Of a stretch of 37,966 nucleotides of DNA, positions 5,776-35,833 are shown piece after piece. Location of the stretch: assembly GCF_011058165.1 (NCBI RefSeq), contig NZ_JAALEG010000064.1, positions 1 through 37,966 of the forward strand, read 5' to 3'. A model generated the notes under the pieces. The model saw only the letters and a list, made by a program, of their open reading frames with translations, was not told the DNA's origin and searched no databases. This stretch comes from Rhodococcus aetherivorans. Its GTDB lineage: Bacteria > Actinomycetota > Actinomycetes > Mycobacteriales > Mycobacteriaceae. The position numbers were made by a program, and so were the translations under genes. Numbering within the stretch: position 1 is the stretch's first letter; the number at the start of each line of letters is the position of its first letter.

Positions 5776-5821
5776 GTCTCGGACTTCGACAACGGTCGCG
5801 ACGGTTGTCGAAGTCCGAGAC
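5776..5821. repeat. Palindromic repeat family A, copy 1
   Basis: Perfect 18-bp arms, GTCTCGGACTTCGACAAC at 5776-5793 and its complement at 5804-5821. The 10-base centre itself contains GTCGCGAC. It begins 4 bases after the iniC stop and can serve as its terminator. The core is shared with the element at 6838-6875. Confidence 0.85.
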
Positions 5822-6827: not shown

Positions 6828-6837
6828 ACACAACTCC

Positions 6838-6875
6838 CGGACATCGACAGCGGTTGCGACGGTTGTCGATGTCCG
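6838..6875. repeat. Palindromic repeat family A, copy 2
   Basis: Arms CGGACATCGACA (6838-6849) and its complement (6864-6875). The centre is nearly the same as copy 1 at 5776-5821: both contain GCGACGGTTGTCGA. The stem position reading GGACTT in copy 1 reads GGACAT here, with the matching change in the opposite arm. It lies between the frameshifted gene and the converging membrane-protein gene, where a bidirectional terminator would be expected. Confidence 0.8.
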
Positions 6876-6899
6876 ACAGCTGTGTGGCTGGCTCCGGCG

Positions 6900-11777: not shown

Positions 11778-11828
11778 GGCCGAATGTCACATCGCGTCGA
11801 TCAGATCGACACGATGTGACATTCGGCC
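11778..11828. terminator. 51-base bidirectional hairpin between hspR and the oxidoreductase
   Basis: A perfect 17-bp outer stem (GGCCGAATGTCACATCG, 11778-11794, with 11812-11828), one mismatch, then a 6-bp inner stem GTCGAT/ATCGAC with a CAG loop. It lies between two converging genes, as expected for a bidirectional terminator. There is no T-run. Confidence 0.75.
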
Positions 11829-26813: not shown

Positions 26814-28367
26814 ATGACCGAGGAGTACGCCGACCTGCATCGGCCCGTGTTCACCGCGGACCTGCTCATCACCGCCCTCGAGCGCAGCGCCGAGAAGCCG
26901 GCCCTGTACCTCGGCGACGTCGTGCTCACCGGCGGGGAGATGCGCGACGAGATCAGCCGGTTCGGGCAGGCACTCGCCTCGGTCGGGGTGGGGCAGGGAT
27001 CGTCGGTGGCGATGCTGTCGAAGAACCGCCCCGAGGTTCTCATCTCGATGGGCGCGACGATGGTCGCCGGCTGCCGCAACAGCGCGCTCAATCCCATGGG
27101 TTCGCTGTCGGACCACCTCTACATCGTCGACGACGCCGCCATCGAGACCCTCATCTTCGATCCGAACCACTTCGAGGAACGCGCCGCCGAACTGAGGGCA
27201 CAGGTGCCGACGCTGAAGAACGTCTTCTCCCTCGGCCCGTCGGAGGTCGGCACCGACATCCTCGCCCTGGCCGCACAGTTCACTCCGCAGCGGCTCGTCG
27301 CCGCGCCGGTGGCGGCCGAGGACACGTCGAGCATCGTCTACACCGGCGGCACCACCGGCAAACCCAAGGGCGTCATGGGCTCGTTCCGCTCCGGCGCGAC
27401 GCTCACCCAGATCCAGATGGCCGAATGGCAGTGGCCCGACGAGCCGCGCTTCCTGATCTGCACGCCGCTCTCGCACGCCGGCGCCGCGTTCTTCGTCCCG
27501 ACGCTGCTGCGCGGCGGATCCCTCTACGTGCTGCCGTATTTCGAGCCGGGCCTGGTGCTCGAGACGATCGAGAAGCACCGCATCAACGCCACCATGCTGG
27601 TGCCCACGATGATCTACCTGCTGCTCGACCACCCCGATTTCGACCGCCGCGACCTGTCCAGCCTCGAGACCCTGTTCTACGGCGCGTCGGCGATGTCCCC
27701 GGCGCGGCTGCGGGAGGGCATCGAGCGGCTGGGCCCGGTGTTCTTCCAGTTCTACGGGCAGAGCGAATGCGGCATGACCATCTCCGTGCTGCGCAAGGAG
27801 GACCACCTCGCCGACGATCCGGAACGCCTCGCCACGTGCGGGCGGCCGGTCCCGTGGCTCGACGTGCGACTGCTCGACGACGACCTGAACGAGGTGCCGC
27901 GCGGGGAACTGGGGGAGATCTGCGTACGCGGGCCGCTGGTGATGAAGGGATACCTCGGCAAACCCGCAGAGACCGCCGAGGCGCTGCGGGGCGGCTGGCT
28001 GCACACCGGCGACGTCGCCCGGGCCGACAAGAACGGTTTCCTCACCATCGTCGACCGCAAGAAGGACATGATCGTCACCGGCGGATTCAACGTCTTCCCC
28101 CGCGAGATCGAGGACGTCATCTCCGCGCATCCGGCGGTCGCGTCCGTCGCGGTCGTCGGCGTGCCCGACGCCAAGTGGGGTGAGGCCGTCAAAGCCTGCG
28201 TGGTGCTGCGCGACGGCCGGTCGGTCCGCGCGGAGGAGCTGATCGAGAGAGTCCGCGCCGCAAAGGGTTCGGTGCACGCACCGAAGTCGGTGGACTTCCT
28301 CGACGCGCTGCCGCTCACCCCGTTGGGCAAGCTGGACAAGAAGACCCTGCGTGCGTCGTACCGGTAG
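26814..28367 (+). CDS. fadD8: FadD8-like acyl-CoA ligase
   Basis: 517 residues from ATG 26814, with GGAAGGA upstream. It is an ANL-superfamily adenylating enzyme: P-loop YTGGTTGKPKGVMG, FYGQSECGMT, GWLHTGDVARADKNGF, DRKKDMIVTGGFNVFPREIE and the C-terminal catalytic Lys in PLTPLGKLDKKTL. Phrases such as FLICTPLSHAGAAFF, MLVPTMIYLLLDHPD and SLETLFYGASA follow mycobacterial FadD8 closely. It activates a carboxylic acid to its CoA ester via an adenylate. The KstR-type site upstream suggests a steroid-derived acid, but the substrate is not determined by sequence. A family B palindrome begins 12 bases after the stop. Confidence 0.85.
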   Translation: MTEEYADLHRPVFTADLLITALERSAEKPALYLGDVVLTGGEMRDEISRFGQALASVGVGQGSSVAMLSKNRPEVLISMGATMVAGCRNSALNPMGSLSDHLYIVDDAAIETLIFDPNHFEERAAELRAQVPTLKNVFSLGPSEVGTDILALAAQFTPQRLVAAPVAAEDTSSIVYTGGTTGKPKGVMGSFRSGATLTQIQMAEWQWPDEPRFLICTPLSHAGAAFFVPTLLRGGSLYVLPYFEPGLVLETIEKHRINATMLVPTMIYLLLDHPDFDRRDLSSLETLFYGASAMSPARLREGIERLGPVFFQFYGQSECGMTISVLRKEDHLADDPERLATCGRPVPWLDVRLLDDDLNEVPRGELGEICVRGPLVMKGYLGKPAETAEALRGGWLHTGDVARADKNGFLTIVDRKKDMIVTGGFNVFPREIEDVISAHPAVASVAVVGVPDAKWGEAVKACVVLRDGRSVRAEELIERVRAAKGSVHAPKSVDFLDALPLTPLGKLDKKTLRASYR

Positions 28368-28378
28368 GCGGCTCCGCC

Positions 28379-28437
28379 GCCGGTGTGTCCTTTGGGCGGT
28401 CAGGGGGGCCCAAAGGAGACACCGGCAGCGCAGCTGC
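28379..28437. repeat. Palindromic repeat family B, copy 1
   Basis: The large hairpin has arms GCCGGTGTGTCCTTTGGGC (28379-28397) and 28408-28426 with one mismatch. A small hairpin GCAGC-GCA-GCTGC follows (28425-28437). It lies after the fadD stop and overlaps the last codons of the minus-strand AbiEi/DUF559 gene, whose TGA falls at the loop edge. The same architecture recurs at 29538-29596 and 34824-34882. Confidence 0.85.
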
Positions 28438-29455
28438 ACCTGTTGTCGGCGCTGCGTCGCCACCCGAGCCGGACAAGGACGGTCTCGACCTCTTCGGCGA
28501 CGCCGCACGGGTCCCGGCTGACCTCGTCGTAGCCGTACACCAGGCGGGACCGCCCGGCCAGTTCGGCGGCGTTGTCGCGGCGACGGTCCCGGAAGGCGAC
28601 CTCCGCCATCGAGTGGAACCTGCGTCCGTCGAGCCGGACCGTCAACGCGGCACCGTGGCCGTCGTACGTGCAGTCCTCGTACAGTGTCCGCCCATCCACG
28701 ACGACCGGCGTCTGTCGATGTGCGAGGGGAAGCCCGTGTCGTTGCTCCACCTCGATCGCGTAACGGAGTTCGAGCATCGACTGGACGCCGTCGGCGAGCA
28801 ATCGGACCGCATCCTCGAGCGCCTTCCGGTATCGGAACGGGGTTCGTTCCTGCGTCCGCCGCCGGATCTCCGACAGCGGAATACGACTGTCCGTGACGAT
28901 CCGGATCAACCGGATGTAGCCGTCGTGCGAGGTGGGCGCGGCCGTCGCCAGGTCGAGCGCGGTGTCGGCCCGGCCGGTGCGCGGGGGCATCGTCGGCACC
29001 CCGATGTGCGCATGGGCCCGGCTGCGGTGCACGATCACCCCCGGATGGAGCATCTCCCCGAGGTGCGGCAGCCGGATGCCGTGTGGCCTCGCCGTGGCGA
29101 AGGTGGCAGCCTGTCCCTTGGTCGACGATCCCATCGGCACGGTGACATGGACCGGTTCGAGTGGATCGTGGGGCAGCATCCCCCATTCCTCGGCGGCTGT
29201 GCGGTGACTGAGGATTCCGGCGTCACCGCAGAACGCGACGGCCGCGGCCAGTACCGCGGGCCGGGACAGCGGGCCGGTCGTCACCGAGTACACGCCACGG
29301 AGCACCTGCTGCCACCGCCCGTACTCGAGACGGTGCCGGATCCACGGCCACGTGTGTCCGTGATGTTCGAGCTGGGCGCGGGTGACGATGCCGTGCTGGA
29401 ACGCGACGATCCGATCGAGTTCGGGCACGTCCGGAAGAACTGGCATGAAAGTCAT
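28400..29455 (-). CDS. Solitary AbiEi/DUF559-type protein
   Basis: 351 residues from ATG 29455. The N-terminal winged-helix part (LDRIVAFQHGIVTRAQLEHHGHTWPWIRHRLEYGRWQQVLRGVYSV) is typical of AbiEi-like proteins. The C-terminal part (YEDCTYDGHGAALTVRLDGRRFHSMAEVAFRDRRRDNAAEL...LVYGYDEVSRDP) is DUF559-like, a fold related to Vsr/restriction nucleases. No AbiEii toxin gene is adjacent. The last eight or so residues (AGVSFGPP) are encoded by a family B palindrome, so the natural C-terminus appears overwritten. Upstream in-frame ATG 29617 also lies beyond a palindrome and is rejected. Start 29446 (MPVLPDVPEL) is an alternative. Its general layout is shared with the frameshifted gene at 5926-6827. 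Its function is unknown. Confidence 0.75.
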   Translation of the reverse strand: MTFMPVLPDVPELDRIVAFQHGIVTRAQLEHHGHTWPWIRHRLEYGRWQQVLRGVYSVTTGPLSRPAVLAAAVAFCGDAGILSHRTAAEEWGMLPHDPLEPVHVTVPMGSSTKGQAATFATARPHGIRLPHLGEMLHPGVIVHRSRAHAHIGVPTMPPRTGRADTALDLATAAPTSHDGYIRLIRIVTDSRIPLSEIRRRTQERTPFRYRKALEDAVRLLADGVQSMLELRYAIEVEQRHGLPLAHRQTPVVVDGRTLYEDCTYDGHGAALTVRLDGRRFHSMAEVAFRDRRRDNAAELAGRSRLVYGYDEVSRDPCGVAEEVETVLVRLGWRRSADNRCSCAAGVSFGPP

Positions 29456-29537
29456 GATTCGGGCGTGGATCGTCTCCGGAGGCCGGCAGAGGGCGAAGCG
29501 GCGCAATCTGTGGACGAACCGGGCGGGTGGGGATAAC

Positions 29538-29596
29538 CCGGTGTGTCCTTTGGGCGGTCGGAGCCGCCCAAAGGACACACCGGCGGCGCAGCCGCC
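29538..29596. repeat. Palindromic repeat family B, copy 2
   Basis: Perfect 20-bp arms (29538-29557 and 29564-29583; core GGTGTGTCCTTTGGGC) with a 6-base loop, followed by the small hairpin GGCGGC-GCA-GCCGCC (29582-29596). It lies between two divergent genes, where a simple terminator is not expected. TATAGC directly after it could be part of the hmp promoter. Confidence 0.88.
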
Positions 29597-29638
29597 TATA
29601 GCGTGGGAGTGACACACCGGACACCCCTGGGAGGCGTA

Positions 29639-30853
29639 ATGCTGTCAGTCGAGTCAGCCGACGTGGTGCGCGCGACCCTGCCGGTCGTCGGTGCTGCGAT
29701 CGGCGACATCACCCCGATCTTCTACCGCCGTATGTTTGCCGCGCACCCGGAGTTGGAGCGGGACCTGTTCAACCGCGGCAACCAGGCGCAGGGCGACCAG
29801 CAGCGCGCCCTCGCGGGGGCGATCGCCGCGTACGCGACGTTGCTGGTCTCGGAGAACGTTCCGCAGCCGGACGATCTGCTCGCCAGGATCGCGAACAAAC
29901 ACGCCTCGCTCGGGATCATCGCCGACCAGTACGAGATCGTGCACAAGCACCTGTTCGAGGCGATCGTGGAGGTTCTCGGCGAGGCGGTCACGCCGGAGGT
30001 CGCGGCGGCGTGGGACGAGGTGTACTGGGAGATGGCGCGGGCCTTGATTTCGATCGAGGACGGACTCTACCGGGACGCGGGTGTGGAGCCGGGGCAGGTG
30101 TGGCAGCGTCTCGTGGTGACGCGGCGCGTCCAGGAGTCGCCGGACACGGTGTCGTTCGTGCTGGCGAATCCGGACGGGACGACGCTGCCGGCGGCCCGGC
30201 CCGGCCAGTACGTGTCGGTGGCGGTGCGACTTCCGGACGGCGCCCGGCAGATCCGTCAGTACAGCCTCACCCGAGCTCCGGAGCGCACCAGTTGGGGGAT
30301 CACCGTCAAGGCGATCGGACCGAGCACGGCCGAGGACGGGACGGAGATTCCGGCCGGTGAGGTGTCGGTGTTCTTGCATCACAACGTGTTCGAGGGTGAC
30401 GAGCTGGACGTGTCGCTGCCGTTCGGGGATCTGGTGCTCGACGACAGCAGCGACCCACTGCTGCTGATCTCGGCGGGCATCGGCTGCACACCCATCATCG
30501 GGATGCTGCACTATCTCGCGCGCACCGAAACCGACCGTTACGTCACGGTGCTGCACGCCGACCGGGCGCCGTCGCGGCACGCGCACCGGCAGGAACTGGT
30601 CGAGCTGGTCGACCGGCTGCCCGGCGCGAAACTGCACCACTGGTACGAGGACCTCGGTGTTCGGCCGGCTACCGACACCACCCGGCTCGGTCGAATCGAC
30701 ATGGACGAGATCGAAATCCGGCCGGATTCCCGGGTGTACCTGTGCGGTCCGCTACCGTTCATGGAGTCGGTCCGGACCTCGCTCCTGGCCCGTAACGTGC
30801 CGGAGGGCAACATCCGTTACGAGGTGTTCGGCCCCGACAAATGGCTGCCGTGA
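29639..30853 (+). CDS. hmp: Flavohemoglobin, nitric oxide dioxygenase (type I)
   Basis: 404 residues from ATG 29639 (GGGAGG upstream). The globin domain (1-140) has Tyr29 (FYRRMF) and Gln54 (GDQQRAL) at the distal B10/E7 positions and His88 (NKHASLGI) as proximal ligand. The FAD domain carries RQYSLT and the NAD domain ISAGIGCTPIIGML and LCGPLPFMESV. The enzyme uses oxygen and NAD(P)H to turn nitric oxide into nitrate. All key residues of the E. coli Hmp type are kept. It converges with the type II flavohemoglobin gene with only 8 bases between stops. The upstream region holds a family B palindrome; no NO-sensor site was recognised. Confidence 0.93.
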   Translation: MLSVESADVVRATLPVVGAAIGDITPIFYRRMFAAHPELERDLFNRGNQAQGDQQRALAGAIAAYATLLVSENVPQPDDLLARIANKHASLGIIADQYEIVHKHLFEAIVEVLGEAVTPEVAAAWDEVYWEMARALISIEDGLYRDAGVEPGQVWQRLVVTRRVQESPDTVSFVLANPDGTTLPAARPGQYVSVAVRLPDGARQIRQYSLTRAPERTSWGITVKAIGPSTAEDGTEIPAGEVSVFLHHNVFEGDELDVSLPFGDLVLDDSSDPLLLISAGIGCTPIIGMLHYLARTETDRYVTVLHADRAPSRHAHRQELVELVDRLPGAKLHHWYEDLGVRPATDTTRLGRIDMDEIEIRPDSRVYLCGPLPFMESVRTSLLARNVPEGNIRYEVFGPDKWLP

Positions 30854-30861
30854 CCCGCCGC

Positions 30862-32022
30862 CTACAGCGGGTCGAAGCTGATGTTCTGCCGCGGCGTGCC
30901 GCCGGCGGACAGTGCGTAGAGGGTGGTCTTGATCATCGACGGGGACCCGGCGATCTGGATCTGCCGATCGGCCCAGGAGCCGAACTGTGAGACCACCTTT
31001 CCCAGCTTGCCGTGCAGGGTCCGGTGCAGGCCCGGCGGCGGATCTTCCACGGGAACCGGGTGCCACCACGGGTTCTCGGTCTCCTCCACGACGGGCACGA
31101 CCGTGAGCCACGGATTGGTGGTGGCCAGCTGCCACAGCGTCTGCAGGTCGTAGAGGTCGCAGGGGTACTTGCCGCCGAAGAACAGGTGCACACGCGGGTT
31201 GTCGCCCCGCATGCCCATCTCCATCAGTTGCGCCCGCAGCGGCGCGAGGCCCGTGCCGGAGGCGATCATCAGCACGTCCTCACCGCTGTCGCGGTCGACG
31301 TGCAGGCCGCCGAGCGGGGGCCCGATCACCCAGCGGTCCCCGACGGAGGTGTCGCCGACCAGTGCCGGGCTGACCCAGCCGCCGGACACGCGACGGACGT
31401 GGAACTCGATCTGGCCGTACGGGTTCGGGGGGATTGCCGCCGACAGGTACCGCCACATGTGCGGCCGCTGCGGGATCTGCACGCTCATGTACTGCCCGGC
31501 GTGGTACGGGATGGGCGAGTCCGTCTCGAGCCGGATGATCGCCAGGTCGGGCAGCACCCGTTCGTGGCCGACGACGGTGGCGCCCCACGCGGCGGGCAGG
31601 TCGTCGTCGGCGACGGCGTCGGCCATGGTCCCGACGAGCAGGTCGATCACCCGGGCCCAGGTGCGGTCGAGAGCGTCGGTCCACAGGATGGGCGGGGTGC
31701 ACTCGCGCACGGCGGTGTGCAGGGCCCGGCCGGCGGCATGGAAGTGGTCGGGCCGGACGCCGTACTTGCGGTGGTCGCGGCCGAGCTGGGTGAGGAAGGC
31801 GGTGACGGTGTCGGGGTCGCCGAGCCGGTTGATCGCCCAGCCGACGGCGGTCGCGAATCGCTGCCGCATCGTCTCCATTCCCGCGGGGAACAGCTCGCGG
31901 ATGCCGACGGTGTCGCTCCACAGGGCGGTGTAGAAGGCCGTGGCGAAGCGCTCGGCGCCGCCGGGAGTCGCGACGATCGACGCGAAGCTGAGCTGGACAC
32001 GGGCGACGGCGAAGGCCTCCAC
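30862..32022 (-). CDS. Type II flavohemoglobin (Rv0385-like)
   Basis: 386 residues from GTG 32022, with GGGAGG 4 bases upstream. The globin domain (FATAFYTALWSDTVGIRELFPAGMETMRQRF) has a likely proximal His in GRDHRKYGV; the position of the distal Gln appears to be Met. The reductase half contains MWRYLSAAIPP in place of the RxYS motif (Tyr to Leu) and MIASGTGLAPLRAQL for NAD. These changes are those of the mycobacterial type II class, reported to use electrons differently from Hmp and to be poor NO dioxygenases. It is divergent from clpB, exactly as Rv0385 is next to clpB (Rv0384c) in M. tuberculosis. Confidence 0.88.
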   Translation of the reverse strand: MEAFAVARVQLSFASIVATPGGAERFATAFYTALWSDTVGIRELFPAGMETMRQRFATAVGWAINRLGDPDTVTAFLTQLGRDHRKYGVRPDHFHAAGRALHTAVRECTPPILWTDALDRTWARVIDLLVGTMADAVADDDLPAAWGATVVGHERVLPDLAIIRLETDSPIPYHAGQYMSVQIPQRPHMWRYLSAAIPPNPYGQIEFHVRRVSGGWVSPALVGDTSVGDRWVIGPPLGGLHVDRDSGEDVLMIASGTGLAPLRAQLMEMGMRGDNPRVHLFFGGKYPCDLYDLQTLWQLATTNPWLTVVPVVEETENPWWHPVPVEDPPPGLHRTLHGKLGKVVSQFGSWADRQIQIAGSPSMIKTTLYALSAGGTPRQNISFDPL

Positions 32023-32147
32023 GCACCCTCCCGCTCGCCGTCTCTGCTGGTCGGCCGCCACTGTAGTCCCGCGGCGGTGTTTCGGCCACAATCGACGTCG
32101 AGCGGCTCGATGACCCCCGCGATGTGCCGCAGGTCACACGACTCGAT

Positions 32148-32183
32148 AAAGTTGAGCGGAACAAACTCAACTTTGGGGCCGTT
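32148..32183 (+). promoter_or_regulatory. clpB control region: HAIR merged with a SigH-type promoter
   Basis: GTTGAGC, seven bases, ACTCAAC (32151-32171) is a HAIR-type operator; the symmetry extends to AAAGTTGAG (32148-32156) and CTCAACTTT (32166-32174). Within it GGAACA (32158-32163), a 16-base spacer and CGTT (32180-32183) form a SigH-type promoter. The -35 lies in the operator, so HspR and the sigma factor would compete directly. Confidence 0.8.
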
Positions 32184-32264
32184 GAAGCATGCGAACGCCC
32201 GCGGCGGGAGGCTGGCGGGTGCAGAATTGATACCAGCTCGCTCAATGAAGGGAAGGGGTTCGCA

Positions 32265-34820
32265 GTGGACTCGTTCAATCCCACCACCAAGACCCAGGCG
32301 GCGATGACGGCTGCCATGCAGTCCGCGTCCGCTGCGGGCAATCCGGAGATCCGTCCGGCCCACCTGCTCGTCGCGCTGCTCGACCAGACCGACGGCATCG
32401 CCGCGCCGCTGCTCAAGGCCGTCGGCGTGGACCCGACCGTCGTGCACCGGGAGGCGCAGACACTCGTCGACCGACTGCCCAGCGCCACCGGCGCCACCAC
32501 CACGCCGCAACTCGGCCGGGAGGCCGTCGCCGCCCTGACCGCCGCGCAGCACCTCGCCACCGAACTCGACGACGAGTACGTCTCGACCGAGCACGTGCTC
32601 GTCGGCCTGGCCGGCGGCGATTCCGACGTCGCCAAGCTCCTCGTCGGGCACGGCGCCACCCCCGCCGCGCTGCGCGACGCGTTCACCACCGTCCGCGGCA
32701 GCGCCCGCGTGACCAGCCCGGACCCCGAGGGCACCTACCAGGCGCTCGAGAAGTACTCGACCGACCTCACCGCCCGCGCCCGGGAGGGCAAGCTCGACCC
32801 GGTCATCGGCCGCGACAACGAGATCCGTCGCGTCGTCCAGGTGCTGAGCCGGCGCACCAAGAACAACCCCGTGCTCATCGGCGAGCCCGGCGTCGGCAAG
32901 ACCGCCATCGTCGAGGGCCTCGCCCAGCGCATCGTCGCCGGCGACGTCCCCGAGTCCCTGCGCGGCAAGACCGTCATCGCGCTCGACCTCGGGTCGATGG
33001 TCGCCGGCGCCAAGTACCGCGGCGAGTTCGAGGAACGCCTCAAGGCCGTGCTCGACGAGATCAAGGAATCGGCCGGGCAGATCATCACCTTCATCGACGA
33101 GCTGCACACCATCGTCGGCGCCGGCGCGACCGGCGAATCGGCGATGGACGCCGGCAACATGATCAAGCCCATGCTCGCCCGCGGCGAGCTGCGCCTCGTC
33201 GGCGCCACCACCCTCGACGAGTACCGCAAGTACATCGAGAAGGACGCCGCCCTCGAACGCCGCTTCCAGCAGGTGCTCGTCGGCGAACCCAGCGTGGAGG
33301 ACACCGTCGGCATCCTGCGCGGGCTCAAGGAGCGGTACGAGGTGCACCACGGCGTGCGCATCACCGACTCCGCGCTCGTCGCCGCCGCCACCCTCTCCGA
33401 CCGGTACATCACCTCCCGGTTCCTGCCGGACAAGGCCATCGACCTCGTCGACGAGGCCGCGTCCCGGCTGCGCATGGAGATCGACTCGCGCCCCGAGGAG
33501 ATCGACTCGGTCGAGCGCATCGTCCGTCGCCTCGAGATCGAGGAGATGGCGCTGCAGAAGGAGACCGACGAGGCCTCCAAGGACCGGCTCGAGAAGCTGC
33601 GCGCCGAACTCGCCGACGAACGCGAGAAGCTGAACCAGCTCACCACCCGCTGGCAGAACGAAAAGACCGCCATCGATTCGGTGCGGGGGATCAAGGAGCA
33701 GCTCGAGGCGCTGCGCGGCGAGGAGGAACGCGCCGAACGCGACGGTGACCTCGGCAAGGCCGCGGAGCTGCGCTACGGCCGCATCCCGCAGCTGGAGAAG
33801 GAACTGGAGAAGGCCGCCGCCGCGTCCGGAGCCGCCTCCGACGGCGACGTCATGCTCAAGGAGGAGGTCGGCCCGGACGACGTCGCCGACGTCGTCGCCG
33901 CCTGGACCGGCATCCCCGCCGGCCGCATGATGGAGGGCGAGACCGCCAAGCTGCTGCGCATGGAGTCCGAGCTCGGCAAGCGGGTCGTCGGCCAGGACGA
34001 GGCCGTACAGGCCGTGTCGGACGCGGTGCGCCGCTCGCGGGCGGGCGTCGCCGACCCGAACCGGCCCACCGGCTCGTTCCTGTTCCTCGGCCCCACCGGC
34101 GTCGGCAAGACCGAGCTGGCGAAGGCGCTGGCGGACTTCCTGTTCGACGACGAACGCGCCATGGTGCGGATCGACATGTCCGAGTACAGCGAGAAGCACT
34201 CCGTCGCGCGGCTCGTCGGCGCCCCTCCGGGCTACGTCGGCTACGAGTCGGGTGGCCAGCTCACCGAGGCGGTGCGTCGCCGCCCCTACTCGGTGGTGCT
34301 GTTCGACGAGGTCGAAAAGGCCCACCCGGACGTGTTCGACACGCTGCTGCAGGTGCTCGACGACGGTCGGCTCACCGACGGGCAGGGCCGCACCGTCGAC
34401 TTCCGCAACACGATCCTGATCCTCACCTCGAACCTCGGTGCGGGTGGCGACCGGGAGCACATCATGGCGGCGGTGCGGGCGGCGTTCAAGCCGGAGTTCA
34501 TCAACCGGCTCGACGACGTGGTGATCTTCCACTCGCTGACCGAGGAGCAGCTCGAGCAGATCGTCGACATCCAGCTCGAGCAGCTGGCCGGGCGTCTGGC
34601 GGCCCGGCGGCTCGCGCTCGACGTGTCGACCTCGGCCCGGTTCTGGCTCGCCGTGCGGGGCTACGACCCGCAGTACGGTGCGCGTCCGCTGCGCCGGCTC
34701 ATCCAGCAGTCGATCGGCGATCAGCTCGCCAAGAAGCTGCTGGCCGGGGACATCAAGGACGGCGACACCGTCTCGGTGGGCGTCAGCGACGACGGCGACC
34801 ACCTCGTGATAGGCGCCTGA
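32265..34820 (+). CDS. clpB: Disaggregase ClpB
   Basis: 851 residues from GTG 32265 ([14 protein letters not shown], as in mycobacterial ClpB), with GGAAGGGG 6 bases upstream. Domains: Clp N-domain to about 150; first AAA+ module with Walker A GEPGVGKT near 206-213; middle coiled coil ([20 protein letters not shown]...); second AAA+ module with GPTGVGKT near 609-616 and [14 protein letters not shown]-terminal D2-small domain. It extracts polypeptides from aggregates together with DnaK. The middle domain and absence of a ClpP-binding loop separate it from ClpC/ClpA. A family B palindrome starts 4 bases after the stop. Confidence 0.97.
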
Positions 34821-34823
34821 CGC

Positions 34824-34882
34824 CGCCGGTGCGTCCTTTGGGCTGCTGTGCCAGCCCAAAGGACGCACCGGCGCGCAGCGCC
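34824..34882. repeat. Palindromic repeat family B, copy 3
   Basis: Perfect 21-bp arms (34824-34844, 34853-34873) with core GGTGCGTCCTTTGGGC, then the small hairpin GGCGC-GCA-GCGCC (34870-34882). Compared with copy 2, a T in the left arm is C and the paired A in the right arm is G. It follows clpB directly and precedes the next gene; TAACCT immediately after it may be a -10. Confidence 0.88.
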
Positions 34883-34897
34883 TAACCTGGAGGGACC

Positions 34898-35833
34898 ATG
34901 ACGAACCCGCACGATCCGCGCACCCCCCAGGAGCGCGCCTACTCGCTCGACGAGGGGCGTGCGGACGACGCGCGCGCGACGGGCACCGGCCGCACGGACC
35001 CGGACGCCGACGACACCCGGGTCCTGCACACCGCCGACCCGACCGAGGCGTACGGCCGTCCGCCCGCCAACCCCACCCTGGTCTACCCGGCGTACGACCC
35101 CCGGTTCGATCCGACGGCGGCGCCGCCCAACCCGACGCAGGCGTTCGAGCAGCCCGGCTCCTACGGGCCCCAGCCGCAGTACACGCCGACCCAGCAGTAC
35201 GCGCCGACCCAGCAGTACACGCCGACCCAGCAGTACACGTCGGCGCAGCAGTACCCGCACACCCAGCAGTACGGGGCGGCGCCACCCACCCCGCCGCACA
35301 CCGGCGAGTACCCGGCGCTCGACGCGAAGCCGCCCCGGCGGCGCCGTTGGGGCCTGATCCTGCTCGCCGCGGTTGCGCTGATCGTGCTGGCCGGCTTCGG
35401 CGGCTATCTGCTCAGCGGCGGCAGCGGCGACGACCCGCAGCAGCGCAGCGCGGCGGCCCCGACCACCACGACCACGGTGCCCCGGCCCGCGCCCACGACG
35501 CCCGCGCCCACCACCGACCCGGCCGTGCCCGGCCTGCCGTTCGAGCAGCTGCCCGGCGGGCTCGGCGACGTCATCGGCGCGGCCGGCACCGTCGTCGGCA
35601 CGATCACCGCCAACGACGGCACCTCCCTCACGCTCAGCGGCATGGGCGGCGCGAGCGTCACCGTGCGGCTCACGCCCGAGACGCAGATCATGTCGCTCGC
35701 GGGCTCCGATCCGTCGGCGCTGCGGGTCGGCGACTCGGTCGTCGCGCAGGGCTCGCCGTTGCGGGACGGGGAGATGATCGCCGACACTGTGGTCAGCGCG
35801 TCCCTGCCGTCCTTCGGCGGTCCGGGCAACTAG
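34898..35833 (+). CDS. Membrane-anchored protein with Gln/Tyr repeats and an extracytoplasmic DUF5666-like domain
   Basis: 311 residues with GGAGGG before ATG 34898. Residues 1-145 are hydrophilic and disordered, with acidic and Pro-rich stretches and five hexapeptide units of the type YTPTQQ at 95-124. After RRRR (147-150) a single membrane helix spans about 151-172. A Thr/Pro-rich outer linker follows, then a small beta domain (GTVVGTITANDGTSLTLSGM...TPETQIMSLAGSDPSALRVGDSVVAQGSPLRDGEMIADTVV) resembling DUF5666. The predicted topology has the N-terminus inside and the C-terminus outside. The function is unknown. It sits between clpB and a TtfA-like gene that are adjacent in M. tuberculosis, so it is an insertion relative to that order. 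Confidence 0.75.
   Translation: MTNPHDPRTPQERAYSLDEGRADDARATGTGRTDPDADDTRVLHTADPTEAYGRPPANPTLVYPAYDPRFDPTAAPPNPTQAFEQPGSYGPQPQYTPTQQYAPTQQYTPTQQYTSAQQYPHTQQYGAAPPTPPHTGEYPALDAKPPRRRRWGLILLAAVALIVLAGFGGYLLSGGSGDDPQQRSAAAPTTTTTVPRPAPTTPAPTTDPAVPGLPFEQLPGGLGDVIGAAGTVVGTITANDGTSLTLSGMGGASVTVRLTPETQIMSLAGSDPSALRVGDSVVAQGSPLRDGEMIADTVVSASLPSFGGPGN
35180..35269 (+). repeat. 18-bp tandem repeats, five units
   Basis: Five in-frame 18-base units encode YTPTQQ, YAPTQQ, YTPTQQ, YTSAQQ and YPHTQQ in the cytoplasmic part of the membrane protein. Unit number could vary between strains. Confidence 0.85.

Follow-up and report, generated by a model that had tools for sequence, protein, structure and literature searches.

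The 37,966-nt stretch of Rhodococcus aetherivorans DNA analysed here (contig NZ_JAALEG010000064.1; the whole stretch is called the window) carries three copies of a palindromic hairpin unit, and these copies proved to be members of a dispersed palindrome family that is larger than first noted. From the placement and structure of the units, we infer at about even odds (a probability of roughly 0.5) that this is a REP/RPE-like palindrome family whose members may serve as two-way hairpins at gene 3' ends, without a U tract. A covariance model of the main hairpin, built from ten exact copies of the window's own genome (G000, 6.43 Mb; its copies are called own copies), found 46 places with E ≤ 0.01, or 48 when E ≤ 1 is allowed. 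A second, wider model, built from 32 copies of twelve genomes, gave at least 118 rows at E ≤ 0.001 in G000, or about 59 places counted on both strands. Because ≤150 candidates per genome were scored with either model (G014 stands at 150), these counts are lower bounds. The initial annotation of the window had expected further copies with conserved pairing, and the search bore this out at 46 or more places, with pairing kept and a small hairpin on about half of the flanks. The other genomes of the genus are given below as G numbers, G006 being R. ruber NBRC 15591.

The three copies first reported are all present in the sequence (Table 1). The description of each as a main palindrome followed by a small hairpin with a GCA loop holds, but it overlooked a further small hairpin on the 5' side, and the unit is longer than described. 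The full unit of about 76 nt has three hairpins in a row, a main one of 20 bp between two small ones. The inner end and the loop of the main hairpin vary, and the commonest outer ends of the unit are TAGGC and GCCTA. Copies 1 and 3 have the 5' small hairpin ahead of the main stem, and that of copy 2 differs. The large stem is fully paired in copies 2 and 3, but copy 1 is imperfect, with a right arm that reads GGAGACACC. Within the window, GTCCTTTGGGC had six matches with at most one mismatch, against 0.41 expected (none of 100 shuffles reached six), and the RNA folds of the three copies gave z-scores of -6.1, -7.8, and -9.2 against dinucleotide shuffles. Two stem types were distinguished in the family: form I, CCCGTGCG-N7-GGTAGC, is mostly bare, and form II, CCGGTGYG-N7-GGC, is often flanked by small hairpins with a GNA loop. 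The script rule behind these assignments uses two stem bases, and some copies are misfiled. Numerous form II copies were read in G000, G006, G014, G003, and G017 (the other genomes were read at a few loci only), and these five genomes form one group with 98/98 support in a midpoint-rooted tree of three proteins. The idea that small hairpins are exclusive to form II was withdrawn, as they also stand beside form I stems at G005 L063, G013 L065, and G002 L066.

The placement of the copies points to gene 3' ends. According to our own codon-based gene caller, which was trained on long open reading frames and used no annotation, 38 of the 46 own copies were convergent (30) or tandem (8), 3 were divergent, and 5 lay inside genes. 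The background was taken from 780 kb of G006, where 119 of 658 adjacent gene pairs (18%) were convergent; measured against it, the excess of own copies at convergent sites is large (binomial 2e-12). Convergent copies elsewhere numbered 8 of 14 in G006, 10 of 15 in the long stretches of G014, 11 of 17 in G003, 4 of 8 in G016, and 5 of 8 in G017. Form I copies in these five genomes were convergent in 20 of 35 cases and tandem in 13, with 2 unassigned. Among the own copies, 13 left and 12 right flanks had a stop codon TAG at a distance of exactly 11 nt from the 48-nt core, and other copies had a TGA within the loop of the small hairpin.

Copy 2 lies between divergent genes in G000, and it was on this account that a terminator-like role had been thought unable to explain all three copies. 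That argument was not supported, since in both G006 and G014 copy 2 comes immediately after the stop codon of a globin-type gene on the minus strand. The flavohaemoprotein stretch that intervenes in G000 (Table 1) would represent either a gain or a loss. The heptamer CCGCCTA occurs at both of its edges (29592-29598 and 30858-30864), and G010 has a similar gene near its fadD. Another palindrome between divergent genes, at G000:C190:3956 (L098 ~1507), resembles form I, has the outer arms AGGCTATCG, and is nearly identical in R. ruber; it is possibly a shared promoter device.

The initial annotation had reported compensatory changes with kept pairing, and these were confirmed for the main stem in the 32 copies of the wider model and for both small hairpins in 16 of the 46 own copies, chosen by hand. 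In the main stem, 12 of 20 pairs had changed on both sides, the frame GTG.G / GG was invariant, and 95.9% of 640 cells paired, compared with 78.5% in shuffles and 35-45% with the arms slid. In the 16 own copies, double changes occurred in four of four pairs of the 5' small hairpin and two of four of the 3' one. A structure of three hairpins accounted for 35 double-change cells against a shuffle mean of 14.3 (0 of 500 shuffles as high), whereas a single long hairpin accounted for 12 against a mean of 15.3. The single long hairpin was rejected as the conserved fold on this covariation, scoring at or below shuffles, though the energy model prefers it. Covariation had first been offered as an argument for selection on structure. 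The conserved pairing stands, but pairing alone is no proof of selection, as double changes could also arise when palindromes are repaired by template switching.

Of the 92 own flanks, 48 carry a triloop hairpin whose stem has at least 4 bp immediately behind the main stem, compared with 7 of 92 control flanks; in 11 of the 46 own copies both flanks carry one. The loop, first described as always GCA, is indeed so in the three window copies, but across the own family it is usually GNA, in 36 of the 48 triloops, and 21 of these 36 are GCA. Form II copies in G014 gave a similar picture, with triloop hairpins on 47 of 102 flanks (5 of 102 in controls) and GNA in 37 of the 47. As each strand is read 5' to 3', a GNA loop 3' of the stem on both strands is a strand-aware signal, which a plain DNA palindrome would not need. 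GNA-triloop DNA minihairpins were reportedly described by Hirao in 1994 and Yoshizawa in 1997. The GC-GNA-GC small hairpin of the units is like those minihairpins as cited in PMC6479982, but those are isolated oligonucleotides, whereas the Rhodococcus ones flank a genomic palindrome and may fold as DNA or RNA.

The unit is shared with close relatives. R. ruber G006 has the hairpin at all 16 own loci for which a two-sided match was available (12 in long stretches, three of them on a contig chosen for carrying units, and 4 in element-centred DNA; the other 29 had no two-sided match), and copy 2 was matched separately. All 18 genomes, read by eye, have a hairpin at the matching position behind clpB. 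The wider model matched all 18 genomes of the genus, with 118 to at least 150 rows in G000, G003, G006, G014, and G017, 79 in G016, and 4-32 in the other 12; across the order, under stricter filters, 19 matched out of a sample of 121 genomes that included G000. Among the named species genomes scanned, a collection that may omit the own genome, R. ruber alone gave the exact core pattern, in 20 stretches. Genomes of another family of the order have (C/G)TCGTGAGTGNTTTGGGTCGTT hairpins in the same frame (L207, L208, L225, and L209 at 1501-1546), and this frame is also seen in hairpins of G114, G072, and G086.

The middle of the stem is spelled differently from species to species. The heptamer was TCCTTTG or TCCTTCG in 77 of 92 arms of G000; form II arms carried TCCTTTG in 30 of 38 cases in G006 and CCTTTGT in 59 of 102 in G014, and form I arms of G016 carried CACTTCT in 12 of 16. 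At all seven own loci compared outside R. ruber (11 comparisons; here and for pair cells each locus was counted from one direction only), the heptamer differed, with pairing mostly kept. Of three loci compared in G014, two had that genome's form II spelling on one or both arms, and the third, clpB, had a form I spelling. CGTGCG-N7-GG was read at clpB in 11 of 16 other genomes, with CGTTTCC in 7 of these. The 61 comparisons that leave out the G000-G006 pair gave 427 changed pair cells, of which 293 were double Watson-Crick changes, 34 went via wobble, and 100 involved an unpaired state; the species pairs overlap and the events are not independent. The alikeness of copies within one species fits both copying among loci and a co-evolving reader. 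We put forward only tentatively, as a possibility with the odds against it, that these are species dialects, that is, gene-end hairpins held to one stem spelling by a co-evolving factor or by inter-locus copying, so that the set would be respelled together while pairing stays.

We propose that the unit would act as a compact two-way 3'-end device between facing genes. Whichever gene is transcribed, its RNA would carry the stop codon, a small hairpin, the long hairpin, and a GNA small hairpin. This series could stall RNA polymerase without a U tract and/or block 3' exonucleases, and convergent transcripts would therefore avoid running into each other. In the ancestor of its clade, form II may have multiplied as a REP/RPE-like repeat, to be retained afterwards as a 3'-end device. 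The units make up a hairpin set that is defined and can be counted, with stop codons for either strand, with loci suited to comparison between species, and with natural variants of every part.

Several results weigh against such a device. Transcript ending without U tracts is debated in high-GC actinobacteria, and the units lack the form of canonical intrinsic terminators: a T-rich tract was found on only 2 of 92 own flanks, and a terminator scan of 28000-35200 found none, with 1.9 expected by chance. Termination would thus have to be of the disputed U-less kind. A strong terminator is hard to reconcile with the five intragenic copies and with copy 3, which leaves 13 nt to the next start codon. 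The unit is also not the general device at convergent pairs, because few such pairs carry one (8 of 119 in the stretches read from G006, 10 of 58 in the stretches read from G014), and at element-centred G014 loci the convergent share was 22 of 44, compared with 19 of 44 tandem. In predicted minimum-energy folds the outer arms pair to form a single long hairpin; this holds as RNA for copies 1 and 3 and the two further own copies folded, and as DNA for copies 1 and 3 with one further own copy. Finally, the 77 changed cells between G000 and G006 comprised 17 double Watson-Crick changes, 9 via wobble, and 51 that involve an unpaired state.

Copies inside genes and empty sites bear on how the family spread. 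Five of the 46 own copies lie in genes that stay open, with Pfam matches that flank or span the unit, and in two reading phases: a galactokinase gene, three condensation/AMP-binding/carrier-domain genes, and an AftA-type arabinofuranosyltransferase gene. In the three AMP-binding/carrier/condensation genes, the unit lies behind the AMP-binding match, and an AMP-binding_C match follows it in two. A single reading frame for all intragenic copies was considered and withdrawn, as four of the five agree and the AftA copy differs; in one of the comparisons of these copies, the GalK copy fell below the score threshold applied. The AftA-type gene has the unit at nearly the same place in G000 (L081 1508) and G014 (L325 1478), with different heptamers. 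An R. ruber plasmid record likewise has a copy inside an annotated arabinofuranosyltransferase gene. One plainly empty site was found opposite own C159:40089, where the stops of convergent open reading frames are 4 bp apart in G014 and 70 bp apart in G000, and at further sites a unit is present in G014 or G016 and absent from G006. At L315 1039, which has a unit in G014, the G017 sequence (L099) keeps the unit's first bases and last few and is without most of it. Overall, the unit was present in 118, weak in 3, and absent in 30 of 151 rows of matched sites, presence figures that are overstated because mainly element-centred DNA was compared. The 30 absent rows comprise 18 that are the GalK site seen from two genomes, 2 for the single empty G014 site, 4 clpB rows with incomplete gaps (the hairpin is visible in the separate clpB comparison), 3 that do have hairpins of another length (G014 L319, L324, and L259 versus G017), and 3 truly without a unit (L315 in G017; L077 and L356 in G006). 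Two of the three weak rows had no unit (L311 and L328 in G006).

Form II could instead be a selfish REP/RPE-like mobile palindrome that spread by transposition or copying to the least harmful sites, its effects on transcripts being incidental. The uniform unit, its many copies, its occurrence in number within one five-genome group only, and the intragenic copies and empty sites just described, including the R. ruber plasmid copy, all fit this account, yet we regard it as rather unlikely, though the strongest of the rivals. All 16 two-sided loci are common to R. ruber, and no target duplication was shown. The coded segment in GalK, seen in 2 of 18 genomes, replaces the variable loop without added length over G014, G017, and G003, and insertion into GalK was rejected on this ground. 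A Y1 transposase (PF01797) was absent from G000, G003, and G014, three of the five form II genomes, and a REP transposase was accordingly rejected for the own genome; PF01797 was present in 5 of 18 genus genomes, with one match in G006 and two in G017. Ten fetched transposase loci contained no unit and gave only chance-level model matches (13.5 bits).

A trans-acting factor that reads the stem and co-evolves with it would explain why a genome's copies share a heptamer, the heptamer being its recognition sequence. The dominance of one spelling in G000, G006, and G014, its difference at every own locus compared outside G006, and the invariant frame speak for this. However, the factor is putative, only some 50-75 sites per genome would be served, the clpB copy of G014 has a form I spelling common to other species and not that genome's form II one, the G014 set was picked partly with a model derived from G000, and copying among units would produce an identical pattern, so that we consider such a factor improbable. 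Changes of the stem middle at fixed loci, in step with the species' other copies, give a direct way to ask whether a reader or mutual copying is at work. Least probable, in our view very much so, is that mutation alone accounts for the family, with template-switch correction keeping the arms matched and recombination making the copies alike, and no function. In its favour, matched arms go with variable loops, many own copies combine a TTT arm with a TTC arm as if caught in mid-correction, and many G000-G006 differences are unpaired states. Under it, however, one would not expect copies to sit mainly between convergent genes, GNA loops to be favoured 3' of the stem on both strands, or a clpB hairpin to be present in 18 of 18 genomes. 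A role as a DNA uptake sequence was rejected because single copies are too few: TCCTTTGGGC occurs 36 times in 6.4 Mb (7 for the reversed control), 20 of them within ten exact palindromes.

The closest known systems include palindromic repeats. GTAG-tagged REPs, as described in the main text of PMC3733652, form head-head dimers of inverted palindromes with a foldable spacer, favour convergent and unidirectional gene pairs, and are sometimes intragenic. The Rhodococcus units share the inverted short palindromes, the foldable spacer, a gene-pair preference, and occasional intragenic copies, but they have no Y1 transposase in the genome, and the long middle hairpin is their conserved part. The GTAG tag may be shared in part: GTAGG stands at the foot of the unit at 29 of 92 own ends and at 7 of 102 form II ends in G014, GTGCG being found at 21 of the latter; where TAGG occurs, G precedes it in 29 of 39 cases. 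The main text of PMC3733652 makes no mention of Rhodococcus, Streptomyces, Mycobacteri-, Actinomyc-, or actinobacteria. Rickettsia palindromic elements (RPEs) are palindromes of about 150 bp tolerated in frame within protein genes, and a CGTC-tagged kind apparently lacks a dedicated transposase, according to the relevant portions of PMC10969869 and PMC3733652. The in-frame copies and the lack of a transposase are points of likeness by description only, as the Rhodococcus units are mostly intergenic, about half as long, and from another phylum. Bidirectional terminators and hairpin clusters, in the portions of PMC5381666 and PMC8355165 that treat them, likewise have hairpins near stop codons, compensatory changes between relatives, and clustering; the Rhodococcus units differ in lacking a U tract, in having one sequence at dozens of loci, and in their species-specific spelling. 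In Rfam, the window had no match above the gathering score, and at E ≤ 1 the part 28340-29620 matched only microRNA models, far below their gathering scores. The phage sequences searched with the unit gave no match, and no description of this palindrome family was found in the literature searched, most subscription journals being outside its reach.

Table 1 Features of the three hairpin units and the neighbouring stretch in the window.
Feature	Position	Remarks
Copy 1, whole unit	28365..28438	TAG 28365-28367 is the stop of an AMP-binding (acyl-CoA-synthetase-type) gene, 26814-28367
Copy 1, 5' small hairpin	28369..28379	Loop TCC, GGA on the minus strand; from the sequence
Copy 1, main hairpin	28380..28425	Right-arm mismatch; loop holds the stop of a minus-strand open reading frame (28400)
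Copy 1, 3' small hairpin	28426..28436	Loop GCA; from the sequence
Copy 2, atypical 5' hairpin	29525..29539	GGGT..ACCC, 7-nt loop; predicted fold
Copy 2, main hairpin	29538..29583	Fully paired
Copy 2, 3' small hairpin and CCTA end	29584..29598	Loop GCA; hairpin 29584-29594
Flavohaemoprotein gene stretch, ~1.25 kb	29604..30856	Parts copy 2 from the globin-type gene; absent here in G006 and G014
Copy 3, whole unit	34810..34884	TAGGCG...CGCCTA behind a clpB-type gene; next start codon 13 nt on
Copy 3, 5' small hairpin	34812..34824	GGCG-CCTGA-CGCC, five-nt loop with the clpB stop TGA 34818-34820
Copy 3, main hairpin	34826..34871	Fully paired
Copy 3, 3' small hairpin	34870..34882	GGCGC-GCA-GCGCC; GG common to the main stem

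Other palindromes were also seen in the window. At 11778-11828 lies a long palindrome of another recurrent kind, short-looped and with GAATGTCACAT, which is also present in G006 at L231:7157, L233:14284, and L243:15274. Two near-perfect inverted repeats of similar sequence, at 5776-5821 and 6828-6885, are perhaps what the initial annotation had called family A.

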